NCBI GenBank assembly: GCA_020854055.1 | Contig: JADZGD010000003.1 | Span: 1 to 64,000 of the forward strand | Direction: 5' to 3' | DNA length: 64,000 nt | Source of the DNA: Bryobacterales bacterium | Lineage (GTDB): Bacteria > Acidobacteriota > Terriglobia > Bryobacterales > Bryobacteraceae | In this document: piece by piece, positions 58,968-64,000 of the stretch | Layout: each line of letters opens with the position of its first letter | Numbering within the stretch: the stretch's first letter is position 1 | Program-made: the position numbers and the translations under genes | The notes under the pieces: model-generated | Seen by the model: the letters and a program-made list of their open reading frames with translations, nothing else | What the model was told of the DNA's origin: nothing | Databases searched by the model: none

Positions 58968-59696
58968 TTAAGATCCTGTTTCCGTCTCGGAGGAAGATGA
59001 GCCGGCCGCATTTCGTTTGGGCGCGGTCCGATCGATTGGCGGCAGGGCGGTTCTTGTGGCTTCGACGGCCGGCGTCCGGCGCAGCGCCCTCCACCAGACA
59101 AACGAGCAGAGAAAACTGCTGAACACCGCGATGTTGCTGCCGGTGAAATAGTAGTCTCGCGATAGCGCGATCAAGGACATCCCGATCGCCTGCCCGGCCA
59201 TCTGCAGCCCCAATCCGCTGCTGATCAGCAGGATCTGCCGGTCGCGGCTCCGGTATACCATCAGGCGCGACCACAACAGCAGGTTCAATATCGCAGAGCC
59301 AAAGCTCAGGTTGCGGTCCAATGCATTCATCCAATGACCGACCCGTTCGTTGTGGCAGGCCCACAACGAGACGAGCCAGAAAAGGATCGCCCCGGCAATC
59401 ACCATTCGCGCAAAGGGCGCGCGCTTCGGTCCGGGAGGGGCAGATTTCAGAATGAGGCTGACCACAATCGCCAGAATCCCCGTCTGGCGAAGGATTTCAT
59501 CGTAGTAATAATACGTGTAATTCAGCAGGCCAACTTCTGTCGTCGCCGCGATTTCGACTACCGTTGTGAGAAAGAGGATAATGCAGAAGGCAAACAGGAA
59601 GGGGAACTTGCGGAAGGCTCCCCGTATCAGGGCAGCCAGCACCATCACCTGGAGAACGCCGCCAATGATCCAGAGGACGAATTGATAATATTTCAT
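58968..59696 (-). CDS. Multi-pass membrane protein of unknown function
   Basis: This 242-residue protein has about seven predicted membrane helices (for example FVLWIIGGVLQVMVLAALI, FLFAFCIILFLTTVVEIAA) and a Ser/Glu-rich cytoplasmic tail. I recognise no family motif. The tyrosine cluster YTYYYYDE after the second helix is notable. No partner gene is obvious. Confidence 0.72.
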   Translation of the reverse strand: MKYYQFVLWIIGGVLQVMVLAALIRGAFRKFPFLFAFCIILFLTTVVEIAATTEVGLLNYTYYYYDEILRQTGILAIVVSLILKSAPPGPKRAPFARMVIAGAILFWLVSLWACHNERVGHWMNALDRNLSFGSAILNLLLWSRLMVYRSRDRQILLISSGLGLQMAGQAIGMSLIALSRDYYFTGSNIAVFSSFLCSFVWWRALRRTPAVEATRTALPPIDRTAPKRNAAGSSSSETETGS

Positions 59697-59816
59697 ACGA
59701 CCCCGCCTGGATACACCTTCACTCTAATCCAATCCAACCGGGATCCAGTCACCAAATAGAAACGGGGAGATCCTTGGCCACCAGACCAAAGACCTCCCGT
59801 TTCAATGAGTTCAGAG

Positions 59817-60257
59817 CTAGACGAATTTCGGAGGGCCTTCGTCCCACGGATTCGGGGGAAGCGTCGGTCCAATCGTAAGCTTCGGAGGGCCTTCGTCCCA
59901 CGGATTCGGGGGAAGCGTCGGTCCAATCGTAAGCTTCGGAGGGCCTTCGTCCCACGGATTTGGAGGAAGCGTCGGTCCAATCGTAAGCTTCGGAGGGCCT
60001 TCGTCCCATGGATTTGGAGGAAGCGTCGGTCCAATCGTAAGCTTCGGAGGGCCTTCGTCCCACGGGTTCGGGGGAAGCGTCGGTCCAATTGTGAGCTTCG
60101 GTGGGCCTTCATCCCACGGGTTCGGTGGAAGTGTCGGTCCAATTGAAACGCCAATCGAGGGGCCATTCAGACGATGACCAGTATTCGCACTAGCGACGAG
60201 CGCGAACGTCAAAATCACAATAACACAAACCGAGACACGCACAATGACTGATCTCAT
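59817..60257 (-). CDS. Secreted protein of six identical 18-residue repeats
   Basis: The 146-residue precursor has a Sec signal peptide (hydrophobic residues about 5-22, cleavage near ASA), a short linker and then six perfect or near-perfect copies of IGPTLPPNPWDEGPPKLT; the last copy ends KFV instead of KLT. The mature part is Pro-rich and acidic, has one Trp per repeat and no Cys. ATG 60257 has an AAGG site eight bases upstream. DNA copies differ almost only at synonymous positions, which points to selection on the peptide. I know no characterised homologue. It could be a surface fibre, a glycan- or protein-binding repeat or a precursor cut into short peptides. Confidence 0.85.
   Translation of the reverse strand: MRSVIVRVSVCVIVILTFALVASANTGHRLNGPSIGVSIGPTLPPNPWDEGPPKLTIGPTLPPNPWDEGPPKLTIGPTLPPNPWDEGPPKLTIGPTLPPNPWDEGPPKLTIGPTLPPNPWDEGPPKLTIGPTLPPNPWDEGPPKFV
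59820..60143. repeat. Six tandem 54-bp coding repeats
   Basis: The units lie at 59820-59873, 59874-59927, 59928-59981, 59982-60035, 60036-60089 and 60090-60143, without spacers. The four units at low coordinates are nearly identical, and the unit at 60090-60143 (first in the protein) is the most diverged. The array probably grows and shrinks by slippage or unequal recombination. Confidence 0.95.
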
Positions 60258-60349: not shown

Positions 60350-60524
60350 GTGCAAACTCTTAGACTATATCGGATTATTCCGTAGTGACGACTAGGGGAA
60401 ACGCCTGGGAGGAAGGCCGGAAACGGCACATTCGGTTGGAATGCGAACGTCTGTTCAGTGGTCTGAATCCACTATACTCGAGGCGGCGACTCGGTTTCTT
60501 CTTTGTTTTAAGTTGGTTACAAGA

Positions 60525-61412
60525 TCAGTCGCCGCGCGTGTAGTACGTTGGCTGCTGATAACTGTCACCACCGGATGGGGAGCGGTGCCTGGGCTGTCCG
60601 GGCCACTCAAGCCGCATGTCATCGCAGACCTCATCGAGCATTTCTAAGGTGGTAACCTTACTTTCCAGCGCAAATGCGGTGAGCAACAGGTTGTCGCAGA
60701 TCGCGTTGATGATGCGCGCCAGACCTTGGGAGCGGACGTGAATCTCGCGAAGCACCGGGGCCGGGAATGCCGTCTGGTCCCTCATTCCCGCCTTAGCCAA
60801 CCGGGAAGCGATGTACTCGATGGTCTCGCCTTCACGAAATGGCTGTAGTGAGCAGCGCAGAACGATCCGCTGCTTCAACTGCCGGAGATTGGGAGCATCC
60901 AGTTTCCGGTCCAGTTCGGGCTGGCCGGCCATAATGATCTGGAGTAATTTGCCGTGGCGGTTTTCGAGATTGCCCAGCAGGCGAATCTCCTCCAGAACAT
61001 CCCACTCCAAATTGTGCGCTTCGTCTACGATCAGCACCGTGGTCCGGCCCTCATTGGCCTGCTGGATCAGCAGGTGATTCAGCGCGAACAGCACTTCGGT
61101 TTTCGAAGTCCGGTTGCAGCGCAGGTCCAGATCATAGGCGATCATCTCGAAAAACTGGTCCGGCGTAATCCGGGAATTGAACAGGAAGGCAAACTCGATG
61201 AACTGGCTCTCAAGAAAATCGCGCAGGCACTCGAGCATCGTCGTCTTGCCCGTGCCCACCTCTCCGCTCAGGACAATGAAGCCTTTCCGGCTTTGCACGC
61301 CGTAGATCAGGTTGGCCAGAGCCTCCTCATGCTGCGCGCTGCGATACAGGAAGTGCGGGTCCGGACTCAAGCTGAACGGGCTGTCTGAGAATCCGAAAAA
61401 TGCGTTATACAT
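60525..61412 (-). CDS. ExeA/GspA-like AAA ATPase (exosortase-system type)
   Basis: From ATG 61412 the protein has 295 residues and begins MYNAFFGFSDSPFSLSPDPH, the characteristic start of ExeA-like ATPases and of the ATPase linked to PEP-CTERM/exosortase exopolysaccharide loci. LSGEVGTGKTT is the Walker A loop and VLIVDEAHNL is Walker B. IIMAGQPELDRKL and LKQRIVLRCSLQPF carry the sensor and arginine-finger regions. A TTG at 61442 would add ten residues. It fits with the PEP-CTERM protein at 37481-38116. No exosortase is in the window. Confidence 0.87.
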   Translation of the reverse strand: MYNAFFGFSDSPFSLSPDPHFLYRSAQHEEALANLIYGVQSRKGFIVLSGEVGTGKTTMLECLRDFLESQFIEFAFLFNSRITPDQFFEMIAYDLDLRCNRTSKTEVLFALNHLLIQQANEGRTTVLIVDEAHNLEWDVLEEIRLLGNLENRHGKLLQIIMAGQPELDRKLDAPNLRQLKQRIVLRCSLQPFREGETIEYIASRLAKAGMRDQTAFPAPVLREIHVRSQGLARIINAICDNLLLTAFALESKVTTLEMLDEVCDDMRLEWPGQPRHRSPSGGDSYQQPTYYTRGD

Positions 61413-61536
61413 TGATGGTTCGAACTGCGGAGAGTCTGCCAACTCCCGGCTAGCATCATCTTAACACTCCGGGATGCGCCATCCGGCGGAATTCGGCCGT
61501 TACCAGCAAATGGTTCCCGGGTTGCCGGACCCAGGA

Positions 61537-62685
61537 TCAGGAGACTTCCACCAGCACCCATCCTGGCAAGGTAGCCGGCTGGGTACCGTGAAAAACAATC
61601 CGCCGGGTCTTGGGGAAAGGCATGCCGGTCTGGATCGCCCGCGCATAGAGCGCTACCTGGCGGGCGACCTGCCGGAACGGTTCCGAACCGGTATCGGGCC
61701 ATGCCGTCTTGGACACCAGCCCGCCTCCCCAACCCAGCGGGAGCAGGCAGGCATTACCCTGTGTACGGATCGAATCCAGCCGCGAGCGGAGTTCACTGAC
61801 CGCTGATGCAACCGCCGCAAGGCCGGCTCGTTCCGCATATTGCACGCTGGCTTCGAGCACCGCGCCCGCGTAATCGTTAGCGGCTGCCAGCAGCCTTTGC
61901 CTTCCGGGCGCCTCCTTCCAATTGAGCAGCCGCAAGACATCGGGCTGGCTGAAGTAGGACCGCTCGTTCCACACGCCGCTGAATTGGGTCCCTGGAACGG
62001 CCATCTCGACAAAGGTTGGCGTGCCATCGTCCGGCGAGTTGACGGTTCCACGCGGGCTGTTTTTCCATCCTTGGACCAGATTCTGCCCGCGCATTTGGAG
62101 CGTGCAGACCCGGGTCATGTAGATCTTCATCAGCGAGGCGGAGGAGGAGTCCGAATCTCCAATCGCCAGCGCCTTCGTACGGCTGACGCCCGAAGGGCCG
62201 AGCGCGCGTTCTTCGGGAACCTCTCCCAGCCGCCGCGGCGGCCGTTCGCTCTCCATCCGCAAGGCCAGATCCTTCAGGGCTCCCAGTGATGAGCGGGCGA
62301 ATACCAGCGCCGTGCGAAAAGCGCCCTTCAGAGCCGTACCAGGAACGTAGGGTCCCGCCGTAGCGGCGGCAAAGGTGGGGATGAACAGATTCTCGCTGGA
62401 AGCCGACTCCCACACCCGGGTCAATGCCGCGCTTTCAAACGGAATCCGGCGTCCGGCAAAGTTCTGCGCGAAACCGCCCCATGACGCGAAATCCAGCTTG
62501 CTGGCCCTCTTGAGCTGCGACAGGTAGCCCTCGAGCCGTGGCCCCTTGGCCAGCAGGCGGAAAATACGTCGCTGATCGAGGATGTTGACCTGGTCCTTCC
62601 AGACCATGTAGTCGATCGGAGCGAGCCTCTGTCCATCGCCGACCAACGTCGGGGTGACACACGTAATCCGATAGCGCATGCTCAT
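61537..62685 (-). CDS. csm5: Type III CRISPR effector RAMP protein, Csm5 family
   Basis: The start ATG 62685 overlaps the csm4-like stop as ATGA and gives 382 residues; the longer reading to 62910 is rejected. The N-terminus (RYRITCVTPTLVGDGQRLAP) followed by IDYMVWKDQVNILDQRRIF matches the start of Csm5 proteins. VPGTALKGAFRTAL at residues 114-127 is the RAMP motif, and LPLGWGGGLVSKT at 315-327 is the second glycine-rich loop. Csm5 caps the crRNA 3' side of the type III-A complex and helps its maturation. With the csm4-like gene upstream it indicates a type III-A or closely related operon that continues beyond 64000. Confidence 0.85.
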   Translation of the reverse strand: MSMRYRITCVTPTLVGDGQRLAPIDYMVWKDQVNILDQRRIFRLLAKGPRLEGYLSQLKRASKLDFASWGGFAQNFAGRRIPFESAALTRVWESASSENLFIPTFAAATAGPYVPGTALKGAFRTALVFARSSLGALKDLALRMESERPPRRLGEVPEERALGPSGVSRTKALAIGDSDSSSASLMKIYMTRVCTLQMRGQNLVQGWKNSPRGTVNSPDDGTPTFVEMAVPGTQFSGVWNERSYFSQPDVLRLLNWKEAPGRQRLLAAANDYAGAVLEASVQYAERAGLAAVASAVSELRSRLDSIRTQGNACLLPLGWGGGLVSKTAWPDTGSEPFRQVARQVALYARAIQTGMPFPKTRRIVFHGTQPATLPGWVLVEVS

Positions 62686-63992
62686 ACCACCCGCCAGGGG
62701 ACAGGAATGGAAATCGCATAGCCCGCCCGATACACCGGGTGCGGATGACCCTCCGGAGCCACGTTGCTGGCCACGCCGCGAGGATCGCCTGAAGCGATTA
62801 CCACCGAACCTTCGGCCACCATGCGCGCGGTCTGTTTGAGGCTGCCCGAACCGGCTGAGCTTTCGACACGGCCGCTCCGTTCCAGAATCGAATACGAACC
62901 CTGCTCCCAATCGACCATGTCGGCGGCCGCCGGCGAGTAGAGCGAAAGCAGCCAGAAGGCAGCGGGCGGAGCCGGGGGCATGGGTGCGGGCGTCATGAGC
63001 GGGGCGACAACCGCCGCGGGTTCAGACGCGGCAGTCAGGCCTGGCCCCGGTTCGGAACCTGCGGTCTCCACTTCCGGCCCGGAGGCGGCAGCCTCCGGTT
63101 GCCCGGCGTCCTGAGCCGTTGGTTCGGCGCCTGAAACCGCCGTTTCCGCATCCGGCGCGGCCATCTCATCCACCGGTTCCGGTTGAGGCTCCGTAGCGAT
63201 CTCAGGCTCAGGCGCCACCGCAGTCTCCGCCGTCACAGATCCAGCGGTCAAATCCGGCGCCGGCGCGGGCTGCTGGCTTGCCGCCGGAACGGATACACCG
63301 AGCGGCAGAACGATAGCTGGAAATTCACCTTCCTCGATCTCCGGCACCTCCGCGCGGCCCCATCCGCGGGAACGGCCGCCGCCAAATCCGGAGTCGGCCA
63401 GCAGACGGAGCGCGGCCGTAACCGTGGAACCCCACTCGGCACGGGCATCCGGAGAACTGAAGACCACCACGAACCAGAGTCCGGCATCGGGAGCAAACTC
63501 GAGGCAGGCTGAGGAGTGTGACGCTATGCTGCCGGAACCCAGCCGGTCAATCGCCGCCGCGCCGCGCACGGCGATTCGGAACGGAGCCGGCGCGACGCCG
63601 CGCCGGTCGACGGCCAGCAGGCACTGGCTGGAGGCATCCACTCTCCAGCGCTCTTCTTCAATTCCTTTGCCGGCGATCAGGCGCTCGACAATGACTCGCG
63701 GAACAAAGCGCGCTCCCTTCCACCGCTGCCGGCCCGCGGCAGGTGGCCACAGGTGCCGCGGAGGCGCAAAGTAAAGGGTCCCGGCGCTGAATGGGAAGCA
63801 CGAACTCAATCGCACCCGGGGTTCGTCCGGGGCGCCGGCGGTCGCTCCCAGCCACTCGTCGAGACGGCCAAGCCGCTGCATTGCCCATGAGACCGCCGAG
63901 AATAGCGCATCGCTGTGATAGATCACCTCGGTGCGATCACGCTCACCCGAATCGCTCCCGGTCCGCCAGGGCGTGACCGGCCGCAAACGCAC
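62682..63992 (-). CDS. csm4: Type III CRISPR effector RAMP protein, Csm4 family, with low-complexity insertion
   Basis: The 436-residue protein begins MRLRPVTPWRTGSDSGERDR and has HSDALFSAVSWAM (residues 26-38), CFPFSAGTLYFAPP (65-78) and the glycine-rich loop SGFGGGRSRGWGRAE (201-215), all typical of Csm4, which binds the crRNA 5' tag and contacts Cas10. Residues about 232-345 are an Ala/Pro/Glu-rich stretch inserted before the C-terminal RAMP half (FWLLSLYSPAAADMVDW). The start is GTG 63992, which shares one base with a TAG stop (TAGTG) of a gene beyond the window, probably csm3. The insertion is unusual for the family. Confidence 0.82.
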   Translation of the reverse strand: MRLRPVTPWRTGSDSGERDRTEVIYHSDALFSAVSWAMQRLGRLDEWLGATAGAPDEPRVRLSSCFPFSAGTLYFAPPRHLWPPAAGRQRWKGARFVPRVIVERLIAGKGIEEERWRVDASSQCLLAVDRRGVAPAPFRIAVRGAAAIDRLGSGSIASHSSACLEFAPDAGLWFVVVFSSPDARAEWGSTVTAALRLLADSGFGGGRSRGWGRAEVPEIEEGEFPAIVLPLGVSVPAASQQPAPAPDLTAGSVTAETAVAPEPEIATEPQPEPVDEMAAPDAETAVSGAEPTAQDAGQPEAAASGPEVETAGSEPGPGLTAASEPAAVVAPLMTPAPMPPAPPAAFWLLSLYSPAAADMVDWEQGSYSILERSGRVESSAGSGSLKQTARMVAEGSVVIASGDPRGVASNVAPEGHPHPVYRAGYAISIPVPWRVV

Positions 63993-64000
63993 TAGATATG

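Follow-up and report, generated by a model that had tools for sequence, protein, structure and literature searches.

A hypervariable exported tandem-repeat peptide and its neighbouring seven-helix membrane protein in Acidobacteriota, a candidate ligand-receptor pair

The window analysed here, a whole stretch of 64,000 nucleotides from a Bryobacterales bacterium, carries on its minus strand a gene for an exported tandem-repeat peptide (59817..60257) and, directly downstream of it, a gene for a seven-transmembrane (7TM) protein of 242 amino acids without a known family (58968..59696). The best explanation of the two genes is an exported peptide ligand with its cognate 7TM receptor, a reading that is quite possibly correct and is put forward tentatively. 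At its base lie a signal-like sequence, tandem units under selection, the fixed order of peptide and 7TM genes, a predicted N-out topology of the 7TM protein and the joint divergence of both partners. The wider proposal, an undescribed cell-cell signalling system of Acidobacteriota in which each lineage has a private pair of hypervariable, tandem, Sec-exported peptides and stand-alone 7TM receptors of GPCR-like topology, is possible and somewhat more doubtful.

The peptide gene starts with ATG and encodes 146 amino acids; its assignment is based on the open reading frame, the signal-like N-terminus and the homologues. By inspection, the N-terminus (MRSVIVRVSVCVIVILTFALVASA/NTG) resembles a Sec-type signal sequence (60186..60257, minus strand), with R2 and R7, a hydrophobic core and an AxA motif before the predicted VASA/NTG cleavage site. 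The repeat units begin at residue 39. There are six of them, of 18 amino acids each (IGPTLPPNPWDEGPPKLT; 59820..60143, minus strand, with starts at 60143, 60089, 60035, 59981, 59927 and 59873), and all their residues are equal except that the sixth unit ends with PPKFV and the others with PPKLT. Tandem Repeats Finder placed the array at 59827-60143 with a period of 54, 5.9 copies and 95% matches, and found no other tandem array in the 64-kb window. These findings agree with the preliminary description of the locus, which had reported six copies of an 18-residue unit after a Sec signal at 59817-60257 and had regarded the peptide as both exported and repeated. Further open frames cover the array, for example 59693..60166 on the minus strand and 59805..60146 on the plus strand; they were rejected as by-products of the periodicity, because the signal sequence and the homologues belong only to the frame at 59817..60257. 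In Pfam and NCBIfam all matches of the peptide were chance matches below the cut-offs, in line with the earlier statement that no characterised family with this unit was known. The candidates rejected on these grounds include the exosporium leader (TIGR03720; 14.8 bits against a cut-off of 23, a chance match to IGPTLPP) and SsdA_C (PF24120; 20.1 against 27 bits, with 15 residues matched).

Selection at the level of the peptide, which had been claimed from the window, is borne out by the variation between the copies. Within codons 1 to 16 of the unit, the window array varies at eight positions; each is a third position and each change is synonymous, with a pairwise pS of 0.29 and a pN of 0. Since about one quarter of random changes are synonymous, the probability of such a result by chance is about 1.5e-5. 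For all arrays pooled, pN/pS between adjacent copies was 0.04, a value that is biased low because the repeat-bearing frame was the one chosen.

Relatives of the peptide were detected in 31 of 237 Bryobacteraceae genomes by a tblastn-style search with a single query and in 42 of the 237 by a profile of two-unit stretches; both counts are low estimates because many matches sit at contig ends. Homologues with signal and repeats, whose absence had been named as a ground for discarding the proposal, are thus common in the family. When 85,000 species were searched with a two-unit DNA pattern, 19 stretches matched; every one belongs to a record with an acidobacterial title, several of them naming Bryobacterales, Bryobacteraceae or Solibacter. 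The exact unit peptides yielded no relatives in genome contigs because the unit differs from species to species. Relatives of the window unit possess a signal-like N-terminus and copies of the core [HIS]GP-x-x-PP-[DN]-PW-[DE], with a spacer that varies among species and is nearly constant inside one gene. The earlier expectation that this particular unit is conserved did not hold: the unit, of 10-26 amino acids in 1 to 11 copies, is nearly invariant within a gene but lineage-specific between genes. Other units found upstream of 7TM genes are GPLPPPDDGDTSVLV, ALGPWPSPDPFERPV, AHIAPPPDIWEL, HGPDGDPGGDGNF, SGPGPAADGF, NGGAPLPPTPWK and IPMSPIPVGRVVSS, besides many more. The frame, the signal and the position of the peptide gene are kept across many genera. 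In one other genus (L166, L168, L169), very short two-copy reading frames such as MFIIPVTPPLPDDVKIIPVTPPLPDDVK, apparently without a signal sequence, lie upstream of a divergent 7TM gene. Runs of N occur inside the arrays at L106, L122, L195 and L097, and many contigs end at arrays; since repeats break short-read assemblies, the true numbers of copies and of genes are higher than those counted.

The 7TM gene was compared over 99 loci from Bryobacteraceae and from further families in the class, each with at least 300 nt of upstream sequence. Directly before the 7TM gene, 75 loci have a tandem-repeat peptide frame and seven a single-copy one that ends straight after the unit, so that a peptide precedes the 7TM gene in 82 of the 99. 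A PAS/HisKA/REC gene replaces the peptide in ten loci, all of one clade, and no recognisable peptide was seen upstream in the last seven, one of which reaches the contig end while another may hold a degenerate unit. The gap between peptide and 7TM genes has a median of 75 nt and measures 45-130 nt in most loci. Genomes without a PPxPWD unit likewise have, upstream of their 7TM gene, a small exported-looking frame with tandem units of different sequence, and in one genome three 7TM paralogues are accompanied by three different peptides. Additional distant 7TM genes, one of them beyond the class, mostly have a small signal-bearing, proline-rich frame just upstream. As the upstream units differ from lineage to lineage, it is the pair that is invariant, and the window unit is one lineage's version of it. 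Among the exceptions, two genomes (G104 and G166) have the peptide gene with no 7TM gene detected, and a third (G045) has both genes unlinked. The single-copy loci are scattered over the 7TM tree, and therefore copies are gained or lost frequently and a single unit seems to suffice.

These results bear on three guesses made earlier about the function of the peptide. A surface fibre is possible, but single-copy versions exist in at least seven loci and the length of a polymer is thus unlikely to be the point. A multi-core precursor of modified peptides finds no support, as neither a recurring modification enzyme nor a dedicated exporter was found among the neighbours of the peptide gene. The best of the three is a ligand for a partner protein, the likely partner being the 7TM protein.

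Joint divergence was measured on 31 loci having the peptide, the 7TM and an adjacent ATPase gene. The distance between units correlated with the distance between 7TM proteins when ATPase distance was controlled for (partial Mantel r=0.38, p=2e-4), whereas with ATPase distance, given the 7TM, the correlation was r=0.11 (p=0.09); differences in rate could add to this result. Identity between genomes is about 34% for the 7TM protein and about 74% for the ATPase. Two features of pheromone-receptor systems are seen here, namely an exported peptide precursor, as judged from the signal-like N-termini by inspection, and a peptide that diverges together with its candidate receptor.

No family was assigned to the 7TM protein in Pfam or NCBIfam. 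Proteins of this group are about 230 amino acids long with seven helices, and a few of them touch the models of MASE3, 7TMR-DISM and 7TMR-HD weakly (best E 0.0016, below the Pfam cut-offs). The gene is present in 115 of the 237 Bryobacteraceae genomes, usually as one copy per genome; a sample of 299 genomes of the class had more distant relatives in 137, and a sample of the phylum gave just one partial match beyond the class. The 7TM protein is a better marker of the system than the peptide unit. Two relatives of the window protein, distant 7TMs from different families, were modelled with AlphaFold2. The Bryobacteraceae protein gave seven helices with a pLDDT of 94.1 and a pTM of 0.88, and the protein from another family of the class a pLDDT of 83.5 and a pTM of 0.78, with its seventh helix broken. 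Lysine and arginine are more numerous in loops 1, 3 and 5 and the C-terminal tail (2.4-3.4 per sequence) than in loops 2, 4 and 6 (0.9-1.3), from which an outside N-terminus and an inside C-terminus are predicted. Seven helices and an N-out orientation, as in GPCRs and microbial rhodopsins, are thus indicated by the models and the positive-inside count. With both models, the best Foldseek matches in the PDB were all GPCRs, microbial rhodopsins or a designed fold resembling a GPCR, and the lists include peptide receptors and Ste2; none of these matches was significant (best E 0.063 and 0.046, TM mostly 0.35-0.60). A 7TM HMM searched against PDB sequences likewise gave no significant likeness to GPCRs or rhodopsins (best E 0.028). 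The fold matches support the modelled topology, not common descent with GPCRs, and any seven-helix bundle of such topology might score alike. A microbial rhodopsin was rejected, as helix 7 lacks the conserved retinal lysine and has IWWxAF(R) as its conserved motif.

The neighbourhood was compared over 40 Bryobacteraceae loci and the window, with all open reading frames set against one another. The most frequent neighbours were an ExeA-like ATPase (28 of 41 loci) and the membrane protein of about 230 amino acids (27 of 41), and in the mapped loci the ATPase, peptide and membrane protein genes follow in this order on a single strand. In the window the ATPase (60525..61442, minus strand) is an AAA protein with an AAA_22 domain, similar to TIGR03015, against which it scored 277.8 bits, under the equivalog cut-off of 324.5. 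It is a lineage-specific third neighbour; an obligatory role was rejected because other families sampled have the pair without an adjoining ATPase. In several of those families, the 7TM gene is followed closely by a gene for a protein of about 135-160 amino acids with a single TM segment (L253-L267, L270, L271); it is without a Pfam match, its start sometimes overlaps the stop of the 7TM gene, and it is a candidate third component there. In one genus, the position immediately before the 7TM gene is taken not by the peptide but by a PAS-PAS-HisKA-REC gene (L170, L171, L173, L175-L177, L201, L211, L213, L214). The 7TM proteins linked to this histidine kinase form one supported clade nested inside the peptide-linked ones, and the kinase neighbour is a single event in one genus.

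Directly upstream of the ATPase gene lies a type III-A-like csm1-csm5 cluster (61537..63998 in the window and 130-2956 of L292, both minus strand), with csm5 and csm4 inside the window and csm3, csm2 and Cas10/Csm1 beyond it. The Cas10/Csm1 protein of 494 amino acids matches just the C-terminal third of the model. No repeat array of at least 22 bp was found in the next 16.8 kb, nor cas1, cas2 or cas6 among the reading frames checked. In about 20 Bryobacteraceae loci the ATPase gene is preceded by a homologue of csm5, and the complex is possibly kept vertically without an array of its own. Searches of Rfam gave no match in the window region and a single match elsewhere, a group II intron domain just downstream of the 7TM gene at L100 (6840-6928, minus strand).

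The layout of the locus bears on the strongest rival of the ligand-receptor reading, in which the peptide gene is a SecM-like regulatory leader that acts mainly in cis on the 7TM gene; its translation or stalling would open a hairpin hiding the 7TM start, and the 7TM protein would be made depending on export or translation behaviour. We consider this fairly unlikely. It would suit a short exported frame whose proline-rich units, sometimes with PP-x motifs near the stop, reach the stop codon or nearly so in most loci, with the 7TM gene following at the short distance given above. In the window, the stretch that separates the stop codon of the peptide gene from the start of the 7TM gene contains a terminator-like hairpin core found by pattern and fold (59765..59798, minus strand); the fold of 59697-59819 extends its stem and is strong, with -54.8 kcal/mol and, relative to 200 dinucleotide-shuffled sequences, a z of -5.0. 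In a comparison of 73 loci, the region around the start of the 7TM gene was less accessible than in shuffles (Wilcoxon p=7e-5), with a rank of 0.05 or lower in 30 of the 73, but the start in the window ranks at 0.38 and is not specially hidden. The hairpin and the low accessibility fit either a leader or a surplus of peptide over receptor. Arrest motifs would be expected to be conserved, yet the units are hypervariable and no C-terminal arrest motif is conserved; several units, HGPDGDPGGDGNF, SGPGPAADGF, DGTTTAPEMR and AGPWPFPDDSAGGNIA, are without any PP. Furthermore, a stall does not need amplification up to 11 copies, and the peptide gene is kept in the genomes mentioned above in which a downstream 7TM gene is not detected or is unlinked. 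Upstream of the peptide gene, a sigma-70-like promoter candidate (TCGTCA-16-TATAGT; 60364..60391, minus strand) matches 9 of 12 consensus positions, though the pattern is weak, with four found against 1.1 expected in the region.

The locus might also serve to build the envelope: the peptide would be a spacer rich in proline or a component of the surface, and the 7TM protein, here with the ATPase, a factor for its assembly or export. ExeA-like and TIGR03015-like ATPases are tied to secretion and exosortase systems by family annotation, and an exosortase (PF09721, E 2e-69, at G000:C81:542-1300, far from the ATPase) is encoded in the genome, as are PEP-CTERM-type glycosyltransferases, whose genes lie upstream on the same contig as the pair. 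The peptide, however, is without a sorting motif, the scattered single-copy loci argue against a length-dependent fibre, and the pair occurs without an adjoining ATPase in other families, so that we regard an envelope structure as unlikely. Slightly less probable still is a bacteriocin-like toxin that inhibits close relatives, with the 7TM protein as producer immunity and the pairs diversifying jointly. A hypervariable secreted peptide that diverges together with a membrane protein, both transcribed in a constant order, would agree with it, as would the several different pairs in one genome, but most genomes have one pair, inheritance is mainly vertical, acidic units are common and no recurring modification or dedicated export genes accompany the pair. 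Phage and viral searches and defence databases gave no match for peptide or 7TM, and a plasmid search a single weak and uncertain one (Streptomyces plasmid, E 0.01, 46% identity). Finally, the array could be a low-complexity by-product, a minisatellite that is either selfish or neutral and sits in a frame the cell can do without. Copy number does shift often, and arrays break assemblies and leave many matches at contig ends; the entirely synonymous variation between copies, together with the frame, signal and position conserved across many genera, contradicts this reading, which is very improbable.

Under the preferred ligand-receptor reading, the gene would encode a precursor with six near-identical tandem copies of a short peptide destined for export and would form a functional pair with the adjacent 7TM gene. 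Either intact or cleaved into its units, the peptide would leave through Sec, and the 7TM protein may recognise it from outside and report its presence to the cell via a lineage-specific intracellular partner, putatively the ATPase in the window, the single-TM protein in several other families and the PAS/HisKA/REC protein in one clade. Thanks to the tandem copies, each transcript would yield more ligand, and the system as a whole would consist of a peptide signal made by the cell itself and a receptor-like 7TM protein cognate to it. Against the receptor stand the lack of a recognised output domain in the 7TM protein, the lack of one intracellular partner common to all lineages, the non-significant fold matches, the peptide genes without a detected 7TM gene and the seven 7TM loci without a peptide.

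No description of the unit or of the peptide-7TM pair was found in open-access literature text, nor one of peptide signalling in acidobacteria, and both genes are outside named families. Should peptide signalling be confirmed, the pair would add a new kind to a logic that is already known. Acidobacteria abound in soils, and a class-wide pair, in which every lineage has its private peptide beside a 7TM protein that looks cognate to it, would offer a testable way into the question of how they recognise kin. With units of 10-26 residues, synthetic peptides make the ligand hypothesis cheap to test.

Several known systems resemble parts of the pair. SecM is an export-sensing leader peptide before secA, and is similar in the Sec-exported short frame directly upstream, the units near the stop and, in many loci, a hairpin covering the start; it differs from the hypervariable unit repeated up to 11 times without a conserved arrest motif. 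The 7TM protein is, like the sensor domains MASE3, 7TMR-DISM and 7TMR-HD, a predicted N-out 7TM and a candidate for sensing, but it is below their Pfam cut-offs and stands alone, without an HD, GGDEF or kinase domain. The neighbouring ATPase is of the ExeA-like type of the XrtA/PEP-CTERM-associated ATPase (TIGR03015), but falls below its cut-off, and the exosortase is elsewhere in the genome. Agr, ComX/ComP and Phr/Rap are peptide pheromone systems of Gram-positive bacteria in which the peptide is encoded beside its receptor and both diverge together. The acidobacterial pair shares with them a self-encoded peptide beside a candidate receptor and joint divergence; it differs in the 7TM protein without a kinase, the absence of a conserved adjacent processing enzyme, the tandem copies and the host. 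The precursor of the yeast alpha-factor is exported and contains a short peptide in several tandem copies, and its receptor Ste2, a class D GPCR, is an N-out 7TM protein; the system diverges fast. All these traits, an exported tandem precursor, a cognate-looking N-out 7TM protein and fast divergence, recur here, although no sequence kinship was found, the fold match to Ste2 is not significant (E 0.41), Kex2-type dibasic sites are absent between the acidobacterial units and no G protein is known in bacteria. If the 7TM protein is a receptor, the pair would represent a bacterial peptide-7TM system that shares its logic with the yeast alpha-factor and its receptor Ste2, whether by convergence or through very distant kinship.
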